Positions 3,517-18,537 of a DNA stretch of 18,537 nt are shown here, one piece after another. The stretch covers positions 1 to 18,537 of the forward strand of contig JAATGK010000107.1 of the NCBI GenBank assembly GCA_015654715.1, in the 5' to 3' direction. Each line of letters opens with the position of its first letter. Position 1 is the stretch's first letter. Source of the DNA: Alphaproteobacteria bacterium (lineage in GTDB: Bacteria; Pseudomonadota; Alphaproteobacteria; Micropepsales; Micropepsaceae). Both the position numbers and the translations under genes were made by a program. Under the pieces are notes generated by a model. The model worked only from the letters and a program-made list of their open reading frames with translations. It did no database searches and was not told where the DNA came from.

Positions 3517-3594
3517 ACGCGGTAGTTTCTACCGCGGCCCTTCCTGGGCGTTTCCTCCCTGAACTTGGCCGCTCCTCCGGGAGCGGCCTTTTTT
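3517..3594 (+). ncRNA. mmgR: alpha-r8 family small RNA (suhB / MmgR type)
   Basis: A trans-acting small regulatory RNA. Three hairpins can be read. The first is perfect, 3518-3525 pairing with 3529-3536 around a TTT loop. The second is short, GCCC (3537-3540) with GGGC (3546-3549). The third is a strong terminator. Between the second and third lies the unpaired decamer TTTCCTCCCT (3551-3560), followed by GAACTTGGCCGC. I recall this pyrimidine decamer as the hallmark of the alpha-r8 family (Rfam suhB), whose Sinorhizobium member MmgR is about 77 nt and limits polyhydroxybutyrate granule formation. The CCUCCC stretch can base-pair with Shine-Dalgarno sequences, which fits repression of translation. 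The gene has its own promoter and is divergent from the phosphatase operon. Function in this organism is inferred only from the family. Confidence 0.85.
3567..3594 (+). terminator. rho-independent terminator of the sRNA
   Basis: A 9-bp perfect GC-rich stem (GGCCGCTCC 3567-3575 with GGAGCGGCC 3580-3588), a TCCG loop and a run of six T (3589-3594). It forms the 3' end of the small RNA and insulates the next gene. Confidence 0.93.
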
Positions 3595-3644
3595 CTTTCC
3601 AGACATTAGACAGCGCTGTCGATACCGATCGATGCGGTCACGCC

Positions 3645-5965: not shown

Positions 5966-6028
5966 GCGAGACTCCCGTCAGGACCGTCTGAAGGCCCTTG
6001 TGGCGCTTCATGATTGGGGGAGGCAAGC

Positions 6029-6655
6029 ATGCAATACACACCAGCAAAAGCAGTTGCGGTAACGGGGCGCGCGCGGTTGCGCCTGGTCGGGTTTGTCTGT
6101 GCCGCCACGCTTCAGATTGCCATGGTTTGGGCTCTGGTAGATGGGCTCAACATCAAAGGCATCCAGGACTTCGTGAAACCAATCGAGACGTTTTTTCCCA
6201 AAGACCAAACCAAACCGCGAACCCCGCCGCCGGCGGAACCGCAGCAGCAACAGCCGGACCGGGTCTTCGTGCCCCAGCCCGACCTGCCGCCGATCGACGC
6301 CGGGGCACGCGACACCGGGCTCACCCTCGATAGCCGGCCGACGCCGCCGCCGACCAGCGGTCCGGCCGACCATGGGCCGCTCAGCCTCGCGGCCACCCAT
6401 ACCATCCCGCCCTATCCGGCCATGGACGTCCGGCTGGGCAATGAAGGAACCGTGTTGCTCCGGCTCACAATCGGGCCGGATGGCCGCGTCGTTGACGCCC
6501 GCGTGGTCCGCACCAGCGGCTTCGAGAGCCTCGACCGGGCGGCCCAGGCCTGGGTGGTCAGCCACTGGCGCTACCAGCCGGCGGTCCGGGGTGGCGGGGC
6601 GGCGGCGAGTGCCGTTGATGTCGCGGTAAAGTTCAGCCTGAAAAACGCCGGCTGA
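6029..6655 (+). CDS. TonB-like energy-transducing protein
   Basis: A 208-residue inner-membrane-anchored periplasmic protein that would pass proton-motive energy to TonB-dependent outer-membrane receptors. The layout is classic: a short cytoplasmic tail, one membrane helix (about 18-38), a Pro/Gln-rich spacer (about 50-115, with TPPPAEPQQQQP and TPPPTSGP) and a C-terminal TonB domain (about 122-204). That domain holds IPPYPAMDVRLGNEGTVLLR, IGPDGRVVDARVVRTSGFES and AAQAWVVSHWRYQPA. The ATG at 6029 is chosen because GGGGGAGG sits 5 nt before it; a TTG at 6014 would overlap that ribosome site. No exbB or exbD is in the window, so the motor is supplied from elsewhere. It may or may not serve the two receptors 4-8 kb downstream, since a tRNA gene and a gene-poor stretch separate them. 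Confidence 0.88.
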   Translation: MQYTPAKAVAVTGRARLRLVGFVCAATLQIAMVWALVDGLNIKGIQDFVKPIETFFPKDQTKPRTPPPAEPQQQQPDRVFVPQPDLPPIDAGARDTGLTLDSRPTPPPTSGPADHGPLSLAATHTIPPYPAMDVRLGNEGTVLLRLTIGPDGRVVDARVVRTSGFESLDRAAQAWVVSHWRYQPAVRGGGAAASAVDVAVKFSLKNAG

Positions 6656-6702: not shown

Positions 6703-6777
6703 GGGCGGTTAGCTCAGCGGGAGAGCACTACCTTGACATGGTAGGGGTCACAGGTTCGATCCCTGTACCGCCCACCA
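6703..6777 (+). tRNA. tRNA-Val (anticodon GAC)
   Basis: A full cloverleaf can be drawn. The acceptor stem GGGCGGT (6703-6709) pairs with ACCGCCC (6767-6773), then A and an encoded CCA (6775-6777). The D-arm is TAGCTCAGCGGGAGAGC. The anticodon arm is CTACC-TTGACAT-GGTAG, giving anticodon GAC for GUC valine codons. The T-arm is CACAG-GTTCGAT-CCCTGT-like. The gene is 75 bp with no intron or odd base. It marks the border between the conserved left part and the accessory right part of the window. Confidence 0.97.
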
Positions 6778-7703
6778 CCTTTATCCCAACAATCTCAATT
6801 GTTTGACGATTCAGGTGGGCCCGCCGCCATGACGGCTGTGGGATTTTTGCAGGTGAGATCGCCCCAGAAATGGCGGTCCACGGGCCAGGTCCGTGGGCTC
6901 GTTTTGGGGTTGATCACTCTGGCCGAAGCAACATGGAAAACCGGATTTCTCTGCCCCCGATTCCTCGATCGCGGCCTTCGCGCGCGGTGGTTGAGCCGCC
7001 CGTGCTCGTAAGCTGGCGGCAATGATGCAGGACGCGCACGAACTTTCGCCGGAGGCCTTTAGGTAGAAGTGCTCGCGCGGCGGTCTCATCATCTAAAGGG
7101 CAGGCGACGGCAAAGGCGACGACCGCCGCCCGTGCTCCAAAAAGATTTTGAAGGGAGCGGTTCGACAGCGCGGCTTTGCAATCAGCGGGTGATGTTCCGG
7201 CATAACCGGTCTTTGGCTGCGCGCCCTGTCGGACTGGCCGGCAGTCCAGGGGGCTTTGTACCCAAGGCGTCGGTGCCGGGCTATGCGGAAAGCGAAAACG
7301 ACGAAACGCTAATTGGGTTTTCCTCCCCTTTAGCGGATTTGGGCGGCAGGCGGTGAAACGAGTGCCGCCCCTTTTCTCGGGCCGTGGTGGCATTCTCGTG
7401 AGGTCTGCATGCGTGCTCGGCTTGATCTCGTTGTTTGCTCCGTCCCCGGGGGGCTCTTCTATTTTGAAAATCTCCAGGCCGAGGCCGGCATGGTTGCCGT
7501 TCATCTGCCGCCTTCAAGCATCACCAGTCTCGTCATATGAGAGCCGCAAGAGGATGCAACACAGGTCGGATGAGGAATTTCGGAAACGCCAACGTTTCAC
7601 CGCGCATTGATCGGCAGTTCGGGACCGCGGACTGCCGAAAAGCAAATGCGGCGGGAAATTTTCACGCGGGTCACTATGACCGTTCAAGGTAAGGAGAAAA
7701 GGA
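6778..7703. other. gene-poor region of about 0.9 kb
   Basis: I see no credible gene. Overlapping open frames exist on both strands (the longest is 6914-7504 on the minus strand), but their translations are rich in Arg, Pro, Ser and Gly with no domain, and none has a ribosome site. Short hairpins occur (AACAAT/ATTGTT at 6788-6803; GGACTG/CAGTCC at 7231-7247). The region could hold decayed genes, a dispersed repeat or an old integration scar beside the tRNA. The 3' end of the tRNA is not repeated in the window, so an attachment site is not shown. Confidence 0.6.
7341..7375 (+). terminator. weak candidate terminator or hairpin
   Basis: GGGCGGCA (7341-7348) pairs perfectly with TGCCGCCC (7363-7370) across a 14-nt loop and is followed by CTTTTC. 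There is no obvious gene for it to end, so it may be a relic or a chance stem in GC-rich DNA. Confidence 0.25.
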
Positions 7704-8687: not shown

Positions 8688-8923
8688 GCGTTTGACGCGA
8701 CGAAATCATTCGCTTCCGGCAGAAGCGGATGCAAATCCCAAATCTGCGTGCCGTTCAAAACGTGCCGTGGACACCGAAGACGTATGTCGTACCGGACGCA
8801 TAGCAATATTGGGCGGCCTGCTTACCCGAGCAATGATGTTGATACTTCGATGCGTCTATTTCGTTGTTGTTTCGTTGGATCATTGCGGTACCATCGTTCG
8901 CGAATAGTCGAAGGCCGTCAAAG

Positions 8924-9499
8924 ATGTCGACGATCTTGGAGGTCTACCTCGAGAACGAAGCGGCGCTTAAGCGGTTCTTGAGGCGATTCACGAAGTCGCG
9001 TGATGATATCGACGATCTCGCACAAGAATGCTTTGTGCGGGCATATGCGGCCGAATCCGATCACGCAATCAATGCGCCGAAAGCGTTTTTGTTCACTGTC
9101 GCCAGGAACTTGGCCCTGAATGAGCTGGCCCGGCGAGCGAATGCCGCAGTCGAGCCACTGGGGGATTTTGGTGACGAGGACGTCTTAGTAGATGAAAGCC
9201 AAGTGGCAGTTGACGACCAAGTGGACAGCCATGAGCGAATACGGCAACTTGCGCGCGCAATTGCCAGTTTGCCGCCTCAGTGTTCGAAGGTGTTTCTCCT
9301 CCGTACGATGCAGGGGCTGTCCCACAAGGAGATCGCCGCGCGGCTCAACATCTCGGTGAGGACGGTCGAAAACCACATTGCTATCGGATTGTTACGATGC
9401 AAAGCGCATTTGCGCGCCACCGGCAGTCCGTCTGATACGGAGGTGTCAGGCGCAAATGGAGGGGTTTCAACCCCCTTCGTCTCGGTGAACGAGAACTGA
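8924..9499 (+). CDS. ECF RNA polymerase sigma factor, FecI type
   Basis: A small sigma factor of 191 residues. Region 2 lies at about residues 10-75 (DDIDDLAQECFVRAY and PKAFLFTVARNLALNELARR). Region 4 lies at about 105-165, with LPPQCSKVFLLRTMQGLSHK, EIAARLNISVRTVENHI and GLLRCKAHLR. These match the iron-starvation FecI group, which is normally held and activated by a FecR membrane partner in response to an occupied outer-membrane receptor. A fecR-like gene follows after 28 nt and an STN-bearing receptor after that, so the likely targets are the receptor promoters. The ATG at 8924 is chosen over an in-frame ATG at 8864 because the region-2 helix follows at once and GAAGG lies 9 nt upstream. 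The tail after residue 165 is Ser/Gly rich and not conserved. Confidence 0.93.
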   Translation: MSTILEVYLENEAALKRFLRRFTKSRDDIDDLAQECFVRAYAAESDHAINAPKAFLFTVARNLALNELARRANAAVEPLGDFGDEDVLVDESQVAVDDQVDSHERIRQLARAIASLPPQCSKVFLLRTMQGLSHKEIAARLNISVRTVENHIAIGLLRCKAHLRATGSPSDTEVSGANGGVSTPFVSVNEN

Positions 9500-9527: not shown

Positions 9528-10583
9528 ATGAACGACGGGCCGAAAATCGCCAAGTTTCCCGATATGGCTGTCATCGAAGCCGAGGCTGCCGCTTGGGTGG
9601 CACGCTTTGATGGTGGTGATGTTTCGGCCGAAGAATACGCGAAATTCCAGAGCTGGCTGAACCGAAGCGCGGCACACCGGCATGCGGTCGGGGAGTGCGG
9701 ACGGCTTCTGGCCGAGTTTTCCAACATGAAGCAATTGGCGGCTGCTCTTGAGGCGGGGCGGAAATCCTCTGCGCAGGAACGGCGGCCGGTCGCGACCTTG
9801 ATATCGCGGCGCTGGTTCACCTACGCGGCGGGCGGGAGCATTGCCGCCGTATTGATGGCGGCCATCTTCTTTCGCGGGCTGCAAGAGCCACCGGCTGTTG
9901 TTCAATCGTATGAAACTGCCGTTGGCGCGCAGCAGAACGCCGTGCTGCCGGACGGATCGACTGTCGTTCTTAACACCAATAGCCGGATCGATGTGAGAAT
10001 CTCGCGCGAGCGGCGCGATGTGCGCCTTGTGCGCGGAGAAGCCTATTTCGAAGTTGTGCACGACGAAAAGCGTCCGTTCACCGTCGCCGCCGGCAGAGGA
10101 CAGGTACGCGACGTCGGCACGGCATTCGAAGTCCAGTTGCTGAACAGCGGCGTGAATGTAAGCGTCGCAACGGGCAGCGTCGAAATCTCTGCATTGCACC
10201 CTGAAGGCGGCGCGTCCGGCACTGCTCCACAGCGACTGGCAGTCGTTAGTGCCGGCCAAAACGCTCTCTTCGACCGCAAGATTGAACATCTTGAACGCCT
10301 GTCCGACGCGGATATGAACCGGCGCCTCGCATGGCGCCAGGGAGTCTTGATCTATGCGGGCGAACCGCTGGCCACCGTGGTTGCGGATATCAGCCGGTAC
10401 TCCAACATAAAAGTCGAACTCGACCCCAAGTTGCGTGACCGACGCATTGGCGGGTCATTCAAAATCAGCCAGATCCGCGATGTATTTTCAGCGTTGGAAG
10501 GCAATTTCGGCGTCCATGCGGAATGGGTAAGCGATAGACAAGTTCGCATAACTTCAGCCCAAAGTGGTAGCAGGCAATACTAA
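9528..10583 (+). CDS. FecR-type transmembrane sigma regulator
   Basis: A 351-residue inner-membrane protein that passes a signal from a TonB-dependent receptor to the ECF sigma factor. The cytoplasmic N-terminus (about 15-65, DUF4880) has AAWVARFDGGDVSAEEYAKF and QSWLNRSAAHRHAVGE, with the Trp residues typical of FecR sigma-binding segments. One membrane helix spans about 95-117. The periplasmic FecR domain (about 125-222) contains LPDGSTVVLNTNSRIDV, RLVRGEAYFEVVHDEKRPF and VRDVGTAFEVQ. A C-terminal STN-like domain (about 268-343, GVLIYAGEPLATVVADISRY) should meet the STN domain of the receptor. It follows the sigma gene in the same direction, so the two are probably cotranscribed. The ribosome site at 9528 is poor, which suggests translational coupling or low synthesis. 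Confidence 0.93.
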   Translation: MNDGPKIAKFPDMAVIEAEAAAWVARFDGGDVSAEEYAKFQSWLNRSAAHRHAVGECGRLLAEFSNMKQLAAALEAGRKSSAQERRPVATLISRRWFTYAAGGSIAAVLMAAIFFRGLQEPPAVVQSYETAVGAQQNAVLPDGSTVVLNTNSRIDVRISRERRDVRLVRGEAYFEVVHDEKRPFTVAAGRGQVRDVGTAFEVQLLNSGVNVSVATGSVEISALHPEGGASGTAPQRLAVVSAGQNALFDRKIEHLERLSDADMNRRLAWRQGVLIYAGEPLATVVADISRYSNIKVELDPKLRDRRIGGSFKISQIRDVFSALEGNFGVHAEWVSDRQVRITSAQSGSRQY

Positions 10584-10822
10584 CGGTATAAGCGCGAACC
10601 GGAACGCGCGGCCTGCGCACTTGCTCCAGAATTATCTCCGTTGCAGACTATCGTTTCGAAGGGCCGTGGCGATCCGCTATGATTGCGGGGCTTTGCTCGA
10701 CGTTGACCCTCGGCATGGGGCTGTGGGTTGGCGGGACTCGTAGGATAAGGAGGTGTTGGCGCCGGTCTTTGTGAAGGCTGGCGACGAGGTGAAACGTAAA
10801 TCCGACCATAGAGTCGAAAAAA
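10584..10822 (+). promoter_or_regulatory. leader of the STN receptor gene
   Basis: A 239-bp spacer. A possible promoter is TTCGAA (10655-10660), 17 bp, TATGAT (10678-10683). A nearly perfect ribosome-binding sequence AAGGAGGTG (10747-10755) has no start codon at the proper distance. The last ~95 bp (from about 10730) have a decayed counterpart before the second receptor at about 14224-14316. Confidence 0.4.
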
Positions 10823-13800
10823 ATGATGTTAGGGAGGAGTGGGCTCGCGGGGGCAGCGCTGTACGCGGCGCTTGCAGTTTCTATTCCAGCTTTCGCAGCG
10901 CCATCGTATACGCAAGCAACGAAATATAATCTGAATATTTCGGAGTCAAACTTAGGCGCGGCCCTGTCGGCATTATCGACGCAGACGGGGGTAGTGGTAC
11001 TTTATCCCTACGAACTAACGCAGATACACGACGTGCGCTCCGTGGCCGGTTTGCATACGGTTCGTGAATCGCTCGATTTTCTTTTGAAAGGGACGGGTTT
11101 TTCGGGCAGCGTGACTCCGCAGGGCGTGGTGATAATCACGCAAGCCTCGAATGAGAAGCCTGGGCTGGTGCTCTCGGACGGCGACAACGACGCTGCAAGA
11201 GAGGTAATCACGGTCACCGGCTATCGCGAGTCTCTGGCCATAGCCGCGGCGGTGAAGCGGTCGAATCAAAATTTCTCTGATCTGATCTTTTCAGAAGACA
11301 CTGGCAAATTTCCCGATCTGAACATTGCCGAATCGATCAATCGCGTTCCCGGCATTCAGCTTACCCGCGACAGCAGTGGCGAAGGCATGCAGATTTCGGT
11401 TCGTGGTTTGGGACCGAGCTTTACGAAAGTCGTATTGAATGGAATGCCGATTGCTGTCGCGTCGGACGGACCGTTTGGCGTCGGCACCGCAAATCGCGAA
11501 GTCGATTTGGACATGTTTCCGACGGAGCTCTTCACGCGCATAGCCGTCAACAAGACTCCCACGGCCGGCATGGCCGAGGGCGGCATCTCCGGCATCGTGG
11601 ATATGGAAAATGTCCGGCCCTTCGACAAACCCGAAGAAGGCTTTCATCTCAGCTATTCGGTGCTCGACCAGTATTCGAACTCCAACGGCGGCTTCGGTCC
11701 GCGGGGCACGCTCATTGCGAGCTACAAATGGGGCAACAAGCTCGGAATTCTGTTCGGCGTGAGCGCCCAGCACTTTATCTACAGGACCGACGGCTACAAC
11801 GCGATCAACGAGGCGCTCTCGGGTGTTGTCGATCAGGTACCTGCGGGGTCCTGTCCGAACTGCAATACGATCGGTGCCGGAAAAAACTTTCACTGGGCTA
11901 CAATCGTCCCGCCAGGCGTCAGCGCCGATCCATCGTTGGGTATCGGAAGCACGGGATCGCATTATAATTATGCCGGCGGCATCAATACGCCGGGCGGCAC
12001 ATCTGGTCTTTCTACGACAGACCTCAGCAATGCCATCATCGGTTATATACCGGAGGAGACGACCGTAAGGGGCAATAAGAACCGCCTCTCGAACTTGTTG
12101 GCGGTCCAGTACAGTCCGACCGAGAATCTGCTGATAAGTCTCGACGTGCTCTACGAGTATTCTCAGCGGCTCTTCGGGGGCTCCGCAATGGCGTGGTATG
12201 TCCGCAACACGTGCAACACGGCAGGCACAGCTGACGACTGCATGATCCCGGTGAACGTCGTAACGGACAATCTCCATTACATCACCTCGGGCACATTCCT
12301 GAACTCGTCGTTCTTTCTCGTCCAATACGCCCAGCGCGAGAATCTCGATTTCCTCGACCTGCACCCGAGCGCCGAGTGGACGGTTAACAACTGGCTGAAA
12401 ATCCACGGCAGCGTCGACTACAACGACAGCCATTTCCACCGGCGCTTGTGGTCATACCTCATTCAGACCACTCCGGGGGCGGGCAATTACGTCAACTATA
12501 CAATGCCGCCCGGTGCCGATATGCCGATCATCAAAACGAACATCAATCTGGCCGATCCGAATGCCGGATGGGAATGGTATCAGGTTCGCGCGCAGCCGGA
12601 GTTCCGCCGAACCATCGATCGGGGGACGGCATGGACCGCGACGTTTGCCAGTGACGTTGCGGACATCACCGCCGGGTACTCGTTTGATCAGAGCTACCGC
12701 TACATCGACGCGCGCGATAACAGCAACGACGCGCAGAACTGTGTGTTGGGCACCAGCACCGAAAGCGATCTTTGCACGTTACCCAACGGTACCGTTTTAC
12801 CTCCCGGCGCACCGCCTCTGGTACCGAATACGGAGGTATTGCGGTATCTCACACAGTTGCCGATCGGCGACTTCCTTCATCTGTCGAATCAGTCCGTCGG
12901 CTTCAAGAACTACATCTCCATCGATATGGCCGCGCTCAATGCGGCAACGCAGATTGCCGGTTTCGTCGACAACGCGCCCTTCGCGGCCAACGGCGCCATA
13001 GGTGCAAACCGTTCTGGCGCGCTCAATGAGAAGACGCAGGCCGCGTTTCTTGAAATGAACCGCCACGCCTCGTTTCTGGATCACGATGTGGGTATCAACG
13101 CCGGAGTGCGCTATTTCAACACAGACCAGTCGATCACCGGGTCAACGTCCGTCGCTGGTACGACCGAGTTCATTACGACCGAGCGCAGCTATGATGGCTT
13201 CCTGCCGGCTTTCAACATCTCGGCCGAGGTGTGGCGCAACCTGGTGATCAGGTTTGCAGGATCGCGGGCGATGACACGCGCCAATCCGAATTCCATGCTG
13301 CCCGGCATTGCTTTCGGGAGTGCCCAGTTAAGTCCGATCGCCGCGGGAAACCCGGATTTACAGCCGTACTATTCGACCAATTTCGACGCCGGCGCGGAAT
13401 ACTACATCGGCGGTCCCGGCGTCATAGCGATTGATTTTTTCAAGAAGGACATCAGCAACTTCACGGCCAACCAACAGATCATCGAGCCATTCAGCGCGAC
13501 CCAGATCCCCCTTTCGCTTCTGACGGCGACGCAACTGGCGGATTACAACGCCAACGGCGGCCCGAATGTGCCGGTCACGGTCAATACGCAGGTCAACCTA
13601 AAACAGAAGTTGCACCTCACCGGATTCGAGTTCAGCTACGTCCAACCTCTGGATGTGTTGCTTGAAGGACTGGGTCTGACGGCGAACTATACGCGGGTCA
13701 TACAACGCGTCGATGCCGGTCTTACCCCATCGCAGACGCAAGGCTTGGCGACCGGGATTGCGCCCTATACTTTCAACGCCGGGGGCTATTACGAGCACGC

Positions 13801-14098: not shown

Positions 14099-14301
14099 CA
14101 CGCCTTTACGCGACGGCCCTCAAGCGGGGCAAAATCGCGCAAGAACGTCCGTGACTCCAACAAGCTGCCTCACGGTTCTGTGATAATTCCGATACACGAC
14201 GGACGACATTCCACGAATTCCGTGGCGCCTCTTAGGTAGTCACAAGTGCCCGCTGGTCTTCATCATCACAGGGCCGGTGAAGGCGATGTGTGCCGATCAC
14301 T
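14099..14301 (+). other. spacer after the first receptor, including a copy of its leader
   Basis: No gene seen. An inverted repeat GTCCGT (14147-14152) / ACGGAC (14199-14204) and a palindrome CCACGAATTCCGTGG (14211-14225) may be part of the transcript end. From about 14222 on, TAGG (14233) and GGTCTT (14255) keep the order and spacing seen before receptor 1 (10741 and 10764), so the decayed copy includes the leader. Confidence 0.5.
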
Positions 14302-14586
14302 GAGTCAATAAAGACTAGGGAGGGGACAGTTCGCGGAGCTGCACTCTGTGGAACGATTGCGTCCACGTGTTCATCGGTCGCGAAGCATTGGTGCACTCGG
14401 GTACAGCGCATGAGGTGAGTATTTCGGCGTGAACTCCGGGTGTTCTCCCGCTTGTCGGATGCGACAGGCGGGATAGAGAACCCTTATCCCTACGAATTGG
14501 CTCAGGTCCGGAGCGATCCGGTCGGTACATCATCTCATGAAGCGCTCGCTATGACGCTTCAGGGAATGGCTTCACCGGAAAATTGA
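14302..14586 (+). pseudogene. decayed 5' end (signal peptide and STN domain) of a TonB-dependent receptor
   Basis: This part of the 543-bp gap between the receptor genes aligns with the start of receptor 1. GAGTC, TAGGGAGG, TCGCGG, TATTTCGG and TTATCCCTACGAA occur in the same order. The spacing is near equal: 167 bp here against 171 bp in receptor 1 from AGGGAGG to TTATCCC, and 64 against 66 bp from TATTTCGG to TTATCCC. Translation gives LSDATGGIENPYPYELAQV, then EALAMTLQGMAS and a stop at 14584. Receptor 1 has LSTQTGVVVLYPYELTQI and ESLDFLLKGTG. The start codon is gone, indels shift frame and a TGA interrupts it at 14416. The likeness continues upstream through the untranslated leader to about 14222. 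It is best read as the remnant of an STN-coding gene start left by tandem duplication. Confidence 0.8.
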
Positions 14587-14590
14587 CCTC

Positions 14591-14640
14591 GCAAGGTTTG
14601 AGCGCCTTGCACAAAAGAGGTTGTAACAAAGAGGGAGAGC
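14591..14640 (+). promoter_or_regulatory. 5' leader hairpin and ribosome site of the second receptor
   Basis: GCAAGG (14591-14596) pairs with CCTTGC (14605-14610) in a small stem-loop, followed by a strong GAGGGAGAG ribosome site (14631-14639) before the ATG at 14642. The good ribosome site contrasts with the first receptor, which has none at its ATG. Confidence 0.4.
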
Positions 14641-14641
14641 C

Positions 14642-17638
14642 ATGCTCCAGGATTACAAATCAACCGTTTCTGTTCTTGCGCTGCTTGTTGGTTTTGCCAG
14701 CACGCCGGCCTTTGCGCAGACAACTCCGGCGACCGGTGACGGAATAGAAACGATCACCGTTACCGGTTACCGCGGCAGCCTAGAATCCGCGGCGATGGCC
14801 AAGCGGACGGCCACCAACTTTTCGGATACGGTGTTCGCCGAAGACATCGGCAAATTCCCGGATCTGAACATCGCTGAAGCGATCAACCGCGTGCCGGGCA
14901 TCCAGCTCACCCGCGATGCTTCGGGCGAAGGCGTGCAGATCACTGTTCGCGGCATGAACCCGAGCTTCACCAACATCACGATGAACGGCCATCCGATCAG
15001 CGTCGCGACCGATGGGACGCTCGGATCAGGCAACCAAAACCGCGAACTCGACCTCGACATGTTCCCGGTCGAACTGTTCACCAAGGTCGCAGTCAGCAAG
15101 ACACCGTCGGCCGACACCTATGAAGGCGGCATCGGCGGCACGGTCAACCTCGCTACCGCCAAGCCACTCGATACTCCAGATCAAGGCTTCCATGCGAACT
15201 ATGCCGTTCAGGAAGAATACAACGACATCAGCGGTGCGTTCAGTCCTCGCGCTTCGCTGATCGCGCGCTACAACTGGGACGACAAGCTGGGCGTCCTGTT
15301 CGGCTTCTCCGGCCAGCACTACAAGTTCCGTACGGACGCCTATGCGAGTGTCGGCAATGCGCTCGCCGATGTCGGCGGCCAGCAGCCGGCCGGCTCGTGC
15401 CCGAACTGCAATACGATCGGCACCGGCAAAGCCTTCCGCTGGGCGACGGTCGTTCCGCCCGGCATCAGCGCCGCGGATGCCGCCAAATACGGTCTCGGCG
15501 CGGCCGGGACGCCGTATGCTTATGCCGGCGGCAACACTGCCGGCGGTACTTCGGGTCTGACGACGGCCGACTTATCCAACACGATTATGCCGTATCTGGC
15601 CAATGAAGGTTATACCGCGGGCGGCAAGGACCGTCTGTCATTCCTGACCGACGTCCAGTGGCGTCCCACGGATACCCTCGAATTCAATTTCAACGCCCTG
15701 TACGAGTTCTCGCAACGCCTGTGGACGACCGACGGTATGGAATGGTACGTCCGCAATACTTGCAACTCGGCCGGCACAGCTTCGAACTGCATGGTTCCGG
15801 TCGGCGTACAGCGCGACTCCCTCGGCTATCTGACCAAGGGTACGTTCCTCAACTCGTCGTGGTTCGCGATTCAATCCCAGTATGCCGAGAACATCGGCTT
15901 CTTGGATCTCAATCCGACGGTTGCTTGGTCACCGACGACGTGGCTGAAGATCGATGGCAGCGTCGACTACAACGACAGCTCGATCAACCGCCGCAACTGG
16001 GGCTATCTGACCCAGACCGCGCCCGGCTCGGGGATTACGGTCAATTTTGAGCAGAAGCCCAACTCTCAAATGCCGACCCTCACCACCAATGCGCCGCTCA
16101 ACGATCCCACCAGCGCGGTTTGGCAGTGGTATCAGGTGCGCGTGCAGCCGCTGTTCCGCGACACCGTCAACCAAGGCACCGATTGGAACGCGACGATCGG
16201 TGACGATGCGAACAACATCAAGCTTGGCTATTCGTACAACAGCATGCATCGCCGGATCGACGCGCGTGACAACGGCGCCATGGCGCAGGCCTGCATCACC
16301 GGGTCTTCCGCATGCACCATGCCGGACGGCTCGACGCGTCCTGCCGGTGTTGGCCTGGTCCCGAACTCCGATCTTACGAAATACCTCCAGACGATACCGG
16401 TCGGAAGCTTCATGAGCCAGACCGATGGCAGCAATGGCTACGATAGCTACATCGGCTTCAACATGAAGGCTCTCGGCCAGGCGGCTCATATCGCCGATTT
16501 CGTGTCGACAGCTCCGTTCTCGACGACCGGCGCTTTCGGTGCTCAGAAGTCCGGCGCCATCACCGAGAGATCGCAGAACGGCTACGTCGAAGTGAACGGC
16601 TTGATCAAAATCGTCGATCATGATCTGCACCTCAATGCCGGTGTGCGTTACTACAACACCACTCAGATCATCACCGGGCCGCAAGCCGATGCGACCGGCA
16701 AGTATTACTTCGTCACCAACCAGACCACCTATCAGGGCATTCTGCCGTCGTTCAATTCGTCGTTTAACCTGCTCGAAGATGTCGTGCTCCGCGCGGCGGC
16801 TTCGCGTACCATGACCCGCGCGCAGCCCTCGGCGATGCTTCCGGGTTTCTCGTTCCAAAGCGCGCTGTTGAGCCCGATCAACATCGGCAATCCGGACCTC
16901 AAGCCGTACTACTCAAACAACATCGACTTGGGTGTTGAGTGGTACACCGGCGGCCCGGGCGTTGTGTCGCTCAACTACTTCCGCAAGGACATCAGCAACT
17001 TCACAACCATCGTTTCGAGCAGCCAGACGTTCGGATCGATGGGCATTCCGTTCTCGCTGCTGACGCCGACCCAAGTCGCGGACTTCAACGCGAACGGCGG
17101 CAACAATGCGGTTGTCCAGGTCAGCCAGACGGTCAATCTGGCACAGGACTATCATCTCGAAGGCTTCGAGATTAACTACGTCCAACCGCTCGACGTCGTT
17201 CTCGAAGGTCTCGGCGTGTCCGGTACCTTCACCAGCCTGACCCACTCGGTCGACCCGGGCCTGTCTGCGGCCATCGCGCAGGGCCTGGCTCTCGGCATCG
17301 CCCGGTACACCTACAACCTCGGCGGTTATTACGAGAACAACGGGTTTTCGCTGCACGTCAACTGGAACTACGTGGCGCGTACGATCTCCATGGCCACGCC
17401 GGCCCAGCAGGGCGTGAACCAGCCTGGCTGGAACAAGCCTTATGGCCAGTTGGACCTGTCGTCGAGCTATCAGCTTGGGTTCCTCGATGGCACCTTGTTC
17501 GAAGGCTCGATGGTGACTCTCGATATCCAGAACCTGACGTCGTCGACGCCGGCCTCGTATATCGGTTCGCAGAATGCGGTGTACGGCGAGACCTATCGCG
17601 GTGCGACCTACATCGTCGGCTTCCGCGGGAAGTTCTGA
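14642..17638 (+). CDS. TonB-dependent receptor without STN domain
   Basis: An outer-membrane transporter of 998 residues, a close paralogue of the preceding receptor along its whole plug and barrel. Signal peptide: about 1-25 (VLALLVGFASTPAFA). A TonB box ETITVTG follows at 36-42 with no STN domain between. Plug: about 55-170 (DIGKFPDLNIAEAINRVPGI, RGMNPSFTNITMNG, VSKTPSADTYEGGIGGTV). Barrel: from about 180 to GATYIVGFRGKF, with the normal C-terminal Phe. The six cysteines of receptor 1 are matched (253/256, 374/383, 551/558). Without STN it should transport but not signal to FecR. It has a strong ribosome site, and its codon choice is more GC-ending and uniform than in receptor 1, which hints at higher expression. 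A GH115 gene follows, which suggests the ligand is a glucuronoxylan fragment. Confidence 0.95.
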   Translation: MLQDYKSTVSVLALLVGFASTPAFAQTTPATGDGIETITVTGYRGSLESAAMAKRTATNFSDTVFAEDIGKFPDLNIAEAINRVPGIQLTRDASGEGVQITVRGMNPSFTNITMNGHPISVATDGTLGSGNQNRELDLDMFPVELFTKVAVSKTPSADTYEGGIGGTVNLATAKPLDTPDQGFHANYAVQEEYNDISGAFSPRASLIARYNWDDKLGVLFGFSGQHYKFRTDAYASVGNALADVGGQQPAGSCPNCNTIGTGKAFRWATVVPPGISAADAAKYGLGAAGTPYAYAGGNTAGGTSGLTTADLSNTIMPYLANEGYTAGGKDRLSFLTDVQWRPTDTLEFNFNALYEFSQRLWTTDGMEWYVRNTCNSAGTASNCMVPVGVQRDSLGYLTKGTFLNSSWFAIQSQYAENIGFLDLNPTVAWSPTTWLKIDGSVDYNDSSINRRNWGYLTQTAPGSGITVNFEQKPNSQMPTLTTNAPLNDPTSAVWQWYQVRVQPLFRDTVNQGTDWNATIGDDANNIKLGYSYNSMHRRIDARDNGAMAQACITGSSACTMPDGSTRPAGVGLVPNSDLTKYLQTIPVGSFMSQTDGSNGYDSYIGFNMKALGQAAHIADFVSTAPFSTTGAFGAQKSGAITERSQNGYVEVNGLIKIVDHDLHLNAGVRYYNTTQIITGPQADATGKYYFVTNQTTYQGILPSFNSSFNLLEDVVLRAAASRTMTRAQPSAMLPGFSFQSALLSPINIGNPDLKPYYSNNIDLGVEWYTGGPGVVSLNYFRKDISNFTTIVSSSQTFGSMGIPFSLLTPTQVADFNANGGNNAVVQVSQTVNLAQDYHLEGFEINYVQPLDVVLEGLGVSGTFTSLTHSVDPGLSAAIAQGLALGIARYTYNLGGYYENNGFSLHVNWNYVARTISMATPAQQGVNQPGWNKPYGQLDLSSSYQLGFLDGTLFEGSMVTLDIQNLTSSTPASYIGSQNAVYGETYRGATYIVGFRGKF

Positions 17639-17837: not shown

Positions 17838-18537
17838 ATGAGGCACAGAACGGGCGCATCGCCGCGGGTTGGCGGCCGGCAGGTGCTAATCGTGTTCTTG
17901 TGTCTTGCGTTTGCAGGATGGGCGCAATCTGCTCGCGCCGAGACTTTGACGCTGTTCGACAAGCACGGCTTGGCCTCGGTCGTCTATGACAAGGATAGCG
18001 GCACGCCAATCGCCAAAGCCGCGGCGTTGCTATCGCATGATCTGAACGCGCTGAGCGGCACGACGCCGGTGGTGACAGCGGATTTCGACGCGGTCAAGAA
18101 TGGGGCCGTGGTGATTGGTCTGGCCTCTTCGCCGAGGATCGCTGCGCTGTTGAAGGCCAACAATATTTCAACCTCGCCGATCGCGGGCAAGTGGGAGACC
18201 TACGGCCGCGCCGTGGTTCCGGCTCCGTGGGACGCGAGCAAGAAGGTTTTGGTGATCTTCGGCTCCGATACTCGCGGTACGATCTGGGGCGTGATGGATC
18301 TGACACGCGAACTGGGCGTGTCGCCGTGGGAATGGTGGGCGGATGTCAAGATCCAGAAAACCGATCGCCTCGCAGTGGCAAGCGCCACGCGCTACTCCAA
18401 AGAGCCTTCGGTCAAGTATCGCGGCTTCTTCCTGAACACCCCAATGCTGTCGGTTTGGGCACACAAGAACTTCGACCAGAAACAGGGCGGCAGGGACGAA
18501 GGCACGAGGTTCTACGGCATCGGTCCCAAGACCTATG
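17838..18537 (+). CDS. GH115 xylan alpha-glucuronidase (3' end outside window)
   Basis: The first 233 residues of a glycoside hydrolase family 115 enzyme, which removes (4-O-methyl)-glucuronic acid from internal and terminal xylose units of glucuronoxylan. A signal peptide (about 1-34, VLIVFLCLAFAGWAQSARA) predicts export. The N-terminal domain has VVYDKDSGTPIAKAAALLSH and DLNALSG. Then come FGSDTRGTIWGVMDLTRELG, VSPWEWWADV and EPSVKYRGFFLN, which match the GH115 hallmark order (YGIYDLSEQIGVSPWYWWADV and PSVKYRGIF in relatives). A perfect GGAGG ribosome site lies just before the ATG at 17838. GH115 enzymes usually exceed 800 residues, so most of the catalytic region lies beyond the window. 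It follows the second receptor by about 200 bp, probably under the same control. It is the best single clue to the substrate of the locus. Confidence 0.9.
   Translation, partial: MRHRTGASPRVGGRQVLIVFLCLAFAGWAQSARAETLTLFDKHGLASVVYDKDSGTPIAKAAALLSHDLNALSGTTPVVTADFDAVKNGAVVIGLASSPRIAALLKANNISTSPIAGKWETYGRAVVPAPWDASKKVLVIFGSDTRGTIWGVMDLTRELGVSPWEWWADVKIQKTDRLAVASATRYSKEPSVKYRGFFLNTPMLSVWAHKNFDQKQGGRDEGTRFYGIGPKTY

Follow-up and report, generated by a model that had tools for sequence, protein, structure and literature searches.

TonB-dependent transducers such as FecA, FpvA, FoxA, and PupB join an STN signaling domain to a plug and a barrel and occur in a FecR-type setting, and STN-less TonB-dependent receptors consist of a signal peptide, a plug, and a barrel. 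To our knowledge, no second signal peptide or start lies between STN and plug in these model STN receptors. For FoxA, it has been proposed that the signaling domain is cleaved off the receptor and protects the anti-sigma factor, with the protease CtpA as the proposed cutter (PMC11637429). Pairs of bacterial N-terminal proteoforms that arise from alternative in-frame starts are known in general (PMC11005335). Alternative in-frame starts are known, then; the two-signal-peptide layout discussed below was not found described for STN receptors, and a literature search that covered few subscription papers returned no account of an internal start or a second signal peptide in such proteins. The terms "two signal peptides" and "TonB-dependent" co-occur in PMC10455584, in connection with chitinase predictions.

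The window analyzed here, a stretch of DNA of 18,537 nucleotides, carries two TonB-dependent receptors that can be compared with these systems. Receptor 1 (R1) and the intact relatives of receptor 2 (R2) share the STN, plug, and barrel of the known transducers. The FecR-type setting recurs at R1 and also at loci L006 and L005, which lie downstream of FecR-like genes. The intact relatives of R2 differ from these transducers by adding a second signal peptide and a start between STN and plug. R2 itself is today like an STN-less receptor, except that a broken STN half lies in front of it. The layout of the relatives resembles the proteoform pairs of PMC11005335 in having two in-frame starts per gene, but here a separate signal peptide would come after each start, and the resulting forms would differ by a whole signaling domain. 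Unlike the cleavage proposed for FoxA and CtpA, a second signal peptide or second start could build the separation into the gene.

The reading favored here, with a probability of roughly 0.84, is that R2 is the remainder of a two-start gene whose first start was lost and whose STN was broken, with the internal-start transporter kept. The ancestral gene would have comprised, in one reading frame, a leader, signal peptide 1, STN, a ribosome-binding site with its start, signal peptide 2, plug, and barrel. An STN-bearing product would have come from the first start, and the internal start would have yielded a transporter without STN but with a signal peptide of its own. In the R2 lineage, loss of the first start and breakage of the STN part by indels and stops would have left the internal start, and R2 would have needed no new signal peptide because that start already existed. 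R1, which lies beside the sigma factor and FecR genes, is more distantly paralogous and has STN but lacks a second signal peptide. Since R2 lacks STN and R1 lacks a second signal peptide, the two neighbors hold complementary halves of the layout. The identity of the fossil, its continuity with R2, the intact relatives, the tree position, and the internal start signals are each shown at the level of sequence.

The locus and its two receptors

The features of the locus are collected in Table 1. R1 is built of a signal peptide, STN (approximately 10919-11146), plug, and barrel. Its STN is not recognized by the Pfam STN profile, even at an E-value of 1. When the region 10898-11152 was modeled (22 sequences, pLDDT 85.4) and compared with the PDB in a fold search, the top match was chain B of 6ovk, from a PupR entry, a chain that we take to be the PupB partner of PupR. 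The model also resembles PupA (2a02; E 3.9e-5, TM 0.81) and the signaling domains of PupB (9cuv; E 2.1e-4), FpvA, FoxA, and FecA. Pfam and the fold search provide independent checks on an in-house STN profile, whose training sequences contained R1 and C50, making its scores for those circular. Of the features that define TonB-dependent transducers, R1 has an STN domain, by the fold search, and an adjacent ECF sigma factor and FecR; it presumably performs the signaling for this locus. R2 has the plug and beta-barrel but lacks an in-frame N-terminal STN.

Table 1. Features of the receptor locus (window coordinates) and of the leader element in related loci (locus coordinates)
Feature	Location	Strand	Evidence
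ECF-type sigma factor	8864..9499	+	Pfam Sigma70_r2, Sigma70_r4_2, Sigma70_ECF
FecR-type anti-sigma factor	9528..10583	+	Pfam FecR, DUF4880, FecR_C
Receptor 1 (R1), 1091 aa	10823..14098	+	Pfam Plug, OMP_b-brl_3
Leader of the decayed module, start codon of signal peptide 1 gone	14251..14322	+	DNA identity to L218/L208 of 0.82-0.83 over 14250-14299; leader alignment A3; motif list
Fossil signal peptide 1 and STN, with frame shifts and in-frame stops	14323..14629	+	tblastn with P0025; DNA alignment with L218/L208
Ribosome-binding site and spacer ahead of the R2 ATG	14630..14641	+	Duplex energy -7.1 kcal/mol; aligned with L006, L208, L218
Receptor 2 (R2), 998 aa TonB-dependent receptor, intact, without STN	14642..17638	+	Pfam PF07715 (Plug), PF00593 (TonB_dep_Rec_b-barrel)
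R2 signal peptide, counterpart of signal peptide 2 of the relatives	14642-14719	+	Judged by eye
Beginning of a GH115-type glycoside hydrolase gene that lies downstream of R2 and is truncated where the window ends	17838..18537	+	Pfam Glyco_hydro_115, E 1.6e-4, under the curated cut-off; match confined to profile positions 2-31 of 335
Conserved leader element	L006:1155-1248, L208:496-589, L218:1297-1390		Motif list and leader alignment

Several other features were observed in the window and in the same genome. A TonB-type energy transducer gene lies at 6014-6655, in the same window as both receptors, with a tRNA gene (6703-6774, Rfam) downstream of it, and a suhB/mmgR small RNA (Rfam) is located at 3530-3603. 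Further relatives occur on other contigs of this genome. L122 (G000:C347) is an STN receptor accompanied by genes resembling FecR and sigma, and L121 (G000:C512) is a receptor fragment whose 5' end is cut by the contig end and which adjoins a GH35-like gene. The L121 fragment and its GH35-like neighbor are similar to locus L040 of genome G010.

A decayed STN module upstream of receptor 2

The preliminary description of this DNA placed a decayed STN (signaling) module in the gap before R2, and alignment bears this out with a score above shuffled controls. Smith-Waterman comparison of the gap (14099-14641) with 10584-11220 gave 33, with none of 1000 dinucleotide shuffles scoring above 22.5, under a scheme of match 1, mismatch -1, and gap -3/-0.5. 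Under a stricter scheme (2/-3/-5/-2), just a 13-base block was aligned, and 47 of 1000 shuffles matched it. Taken alone, the R1 comparison is moderate evidence for a fossil. The shared blocks do follow the same order as had been reported, 10760-11125 being colinear with 14251-14597, and the quoted peptide LSDATGGIENPYPYELAQV is present at 14452-14508. Also, the missing start codon, the changes of matching frame, and the stops are all seen in the tblastn and DNA alignments.

Higher scores were obtained with modules other than that of R1. In tblastn searches, the N-terminal 150 residues of P0025 matched 14323-14565 in frame 3 (43.9 bits, E 1e-11) and 14493-14636 in frame 2 (37.4 bits, E 3e-9), as against at most 23.5 bits for R1 in the gap; P0027, P0009, and C50 gave weaker matches to the fossil than P0025. 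At the DNA level, the best gap matches among the STN loci read are L218 (68.5, a figure obtained without shuffles) and L208 (67), compared with 33 for R1. With the R2 signal peptide included, the scores become 95.5 for L218 and 88 for L208, and that of R1 stays at 33; for the 95.5 of L218 against 14099-14720, the highest score among 500 mononucleotide shuffles was 18.0. When 123 loci were scanned, L006, on contig C50 of the same genome, matched best besides the gap itself (39, versus 33 for R1). Given 43.9 against 23.5 bits for P0025 and 68.5 against 33 for L218, the earlier view of the fossil as a copy of the R1 5' end is not supported. The closest intact modules found are those of P0025 among proteins and L218/L208 among DNA sequences, not R1.

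The fossil extends over approximately 14251-14641, and homology to L218 runs on across the R2 start to 14777. The DNA of L218 and L208 aligns unbroken through the leader, the fossil, the R2 ATG, and the R2 signal peptide (14251-14777), and identity to L218 over this range is 0.60-0.82 per 50 bases, with a dip to 0.60-0.65 in 14350-14499 and no step at the R2 ATG. This identity is about equal in the fossil and in the living R2 signal peptide, which counts against the favored reading. L006 encodes, in one frame, a signal peptide, STN, GAGGAGGGGAAAGCCATG, a second signal peptide, plug, and barrel, and its junction is recognizable in the fossil right ahead of the R2 ATG.

The sequence at 14251-14285 resembles a conserved inverted-repeat-like leader element, CCGGTCT...GGCCGG...GAAGGC, that is located upstream of signal peptide 1 and that may form an RNA hairpin or serve as an operator. 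Errorless copies occur only in L006, L208, L209, L214, and L218, all of one STN type. Elsewhere in the window, 7037-7189 resembles the gap segment 14212-14352 (score 29 versus a maximum of 20.5 in 500 shuffles) and may be another decayed leader; in comparisons with the intact leaders of L006 and R1, 52 and 54 of 300 shuffles were equally good.

The two-signal-peptide layout and its internal start

An intact STN, which the preliminary description suggested looking for on relatives of R2, is present and in frame in P0025 and P0027. A protein search with R2 residues 1-300 gave 602 proteins at E <=1e-40, of which the best 120 of 602 were listed and 25 new ones were read. P0025 and P0027, among the matches listed and known here as proteins, are R2-type receptors in which signal peptide 1, an intact STN half, the internal start, signal peptide 2, and the receptor follow one another in frame. 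Counting from its internal Met 118, P0025 is identical to R2 at 730 of 1001 aligned positions (73%). P0009, likewise known here as a protein, is a more distant intact example of STN with a second signal peptide.

The same layout recurs across the genus set, where a PF07660 search gave matches in 31 of 69 genomes. STN was found in 110 of the 111 regions read, some of which are not receptors, and in 20 of these 110 STN loci it is followed, as judged by eye, by an in-frame second signal peptide. STN, an internal start, and a second signal peptide in one open frame, the combination that defines a two-start cassette, are found in those 20 and in P0025, P0027, and P0009. Among the STN-bearing frames, the only ones examined, no STN was seen to be paired with a second signal peptide in another frame, although this choice of frames favors in-frame cases. 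A sequence matching L209 (G010:C72), P0014, is annotated from the internal start, with the frame open through STN.

Inside the STN reading frame of the intact relatives, a ribosome-binding site and a start codon precede signal peptide 2. The Shine-Dalgarno energy at the internal start averages -7.66 kcal/mol (n = 20), compared with -2.06 at 108 other in-frame Met codons (p 1.4e-10, a value that overstates independence because the loci are related and pairs overlap). Energies of -6 kcal/mol or lower are reached by 17 of the 20 internal starts and by 9.3% of the 108 control codons. The starts that miss this value are those of L173 (-5.8), L196 (-3.9), and L222 (-3.7), and in L196 and L222 no strong ribosome-binding site precedes the second signal peptide. 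In L214, which is related to L006, the internal start is TTG, which is still a start codon. Across 18 of the 20 loci (L196 and L222 excluded), Glu codons at the Shine-Dalgarno core are GAG 27 times and GAA twice, against 87 and 209 elsewhere (p 1e-11, overstated for the same reason). Thus, the codons at the internal start favor a Shine-Dalgarno site.

Selection was assessed by dN/dS in 8 overlapping pairs drawn from 11 related loci. Values for STN are 0.05-0.26 in all 8 pairs, and those for the second signal peptide are 0.05-0.32 in 7 of the 8, the eighth being saturated; both STN and signal peptide 2 are under purifying selection. Signal peptide 1 gave 0.15-0.42 in 7 pairs and 1.88 in L006/L214. 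In 5 of 8 pairs, which all belong to one module type, the junction shows clearly less synonymous change than STN. The junction and STN are similar in L006/L209 (0.11 versus 0.14), and the junction value is higher in L006/L214 (0.22 versus 0.13) and L208/L218 (0.46 versus 0.33). Because STN is under selection and no stop intervenes up to the receptor, the long protein is probably translated in the intact relatives. The internal start signals and the survival of R2 without its STN half argue that the short protein is translated too, and we infer that intact relatives make both. Within the long form, signal peptide 2 could serve as a linker, signal peptidase could cleave it, or it could anchor the chain in the inner membrane; the model proposed for FoxA (PMC11637429) would fit either of the last two.

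The strength of the first start, read at 17 loci, is variable. It is weak in L208, L217, L218, and R1 (-2.4 to -3.6 at the likely start), and in L006, L209, and L214 it is uncertain, the candidates being a GTG (-2.5) and an ATG farther on (-7.1). In the other module type, GTG is frequent as the first start and has a fair or strong site (L151 -8.9, L223 -9.2, L219 -11.6). The idea that the long form is always a minor product of a weak first start was only partly borne out, since L006, L209, and L214 have the possible ATG with -7.1 and several GTG starts are strong.

Another explanation is that the second signal peptide of the relatives is a gene-fusion relic, that only the long protein is made, and that the internal start goes unused; this would be compatible with the fossil having once been the STN half of R2. 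It draws on the occurrence of the layout with a weak ribosome-binding site in L196, L222, L285, L288, and L298. The strong, codon-biased Shine-Dalgarno site in the genus, the TTG of L214 and GTG of L257 at the internal start, the purifying selection on signal peptide 2, and the retention of the short frame alone in R2 all argue in the other direction, and a relic of this kind is unlikely.

Origin of the fossil and spread of the module

The gap is best read as R2's own former 5' half rather than as a copy of R1. The preliminary description also considered the remnant of a third receptor, deleted save for its 5' end, and a related possibility is that an STN module was recombined before R2 and then decayed. 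The N-terminal module is indeed found on unrelated receptors, as P0025 and L208/L218 illustrate. Against such an origin, the R2 signal peptide and the fossil form one module with no break at the ATG, and the R2 body groups with P0025 and P0027, which are carriers of that module type. With homology unbroken over the R2 ATG and with P0025 joining the same module to an R2-type body, the deleted receptor is an unlikely source, and either event would be quite improbable.

It was originally suggested that this locus captures the conversion of a transducer into a transporter by duplication. Loss of STN in the lineage of R2, and with it the change from transducer to transporter, is supported; a recent tandem duplication of R1, with a fossil copied from it, is not. 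R2 is intact, as had been noted, but a new and separate signal peptide is not supported, its own matching signal peptide 2 of the relatives. In a tree of 30 plug-and-barrel sequences, midpoint-rooted for display, P0027 and P0025, with STN and a second signal peptide, fall just outside (P0026,(R2,(P0023,P0024))) with supports of 98-100, and R1, P0033, and P0035 form a separate clade (100/100). With R1 in that clade and R2 amid STN-keeping lineages, a recent R1 duplication is therefore not supported. R1 and R2 are neighbors with a shared orientation and approximately 54% identity, and the fossil does align to the R1 leader and STN, all as expected of a tandem duplication of R1 followed by STN loss in the copy. 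Nevertheless, the fossil is closer to P0025 and L218/L208 than to R1, the R1 clade is well separated from the lineages with STN and a second signal peptide among which R2 lies, and the second signal peptide of R2 is missing from R1, so that this history is more improbable still.

That the breaks in the STN half are artifacts of sequencing or assembly is scarcely credible even for a fragmented genome (518 contigs, 74% complete), as a lost start, several indels, and stops cluster in 0.4 kb near open R1, R2, FecR, and sigma frames and L218 identity falls to 0.60-0.65 in 14350-14499.

The states of STN only, second signal peptide only, and both require 11 changes on the tree, where rows scored as second signal peptide only may hide an STN because annotation can pick an internal start. 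Shuffled labels require 13.2 changes on average, and 20 of 200 shuffles are as low as 11; the three states are therefore scattered on the tree. In G010, the related pair L040/L120 consists of divergently oriented neighbors, one receptor with STN and one without, that are tree sisters (100/100) and thus represent a separate split. This pair was also considered as a carrier of the same fossil and was rejected: it is absent from the 40 best chunks of the scan, and the STN region of L120 scores only 14.5 against the gap.

Beyond the genus, a search with alignment A1 (18 modules, threshold E 1e-6) gave matches in 44 of 385 class genomes and 82 of 398 phylum genomes, and most of the listed matches stop before the second signal peptide. 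Among 58 loci read, 2 of them within the genus, a second signal-peptide-like stretch was seen in 9 of the other 56, as judged by eye, and these cases are weaker. Outside the genus, 4 of 9 internal starts reach -6, L257 has GTG, and L312 is without a usual start codon. The modules of L208/L218 and P0025 are 68-71% identical, compared with 28-30% for their bodies over the aligned 137 and 201 positions, and the DNA of L208/L218 also matches the R2 leader, fossil, and signal peptide. Therefore, an N-terminal unit that includes the leader has changed partners.

Even odds might be given to a broader proposal, namely that a movable N-terminal cassette makes many TonB-dependent receptors two-product genes, with paralogues such as R1 and R2 dividing the jobs. 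Such a cassette would consist of the leader element, signal peptide 1, STN, the internal Shine-Dalgarno site and start, and signal peptide 2. Its first start would yield a transducer that bears STN or else an STN fragment, generated at signal peptide 2, that is free or held in the membrane; its internal start would yield an STN-less transporter.

Annotation from the internal start, as with P0014, hides the signaling half, and such genes may be undercounted. R2 can be regarded as a natural knock-out of the long form in which the short reading frame survives alone. If true, the layout bears on a question raised in PMC11637429, which is how a signaling domain can reach the inner membrane while joined to a receptor in the outer one. 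If the favored reading is true, the signaling domain would be separable from its receptor by design, and translation within one gene could set the ratio of transducer to transporter.
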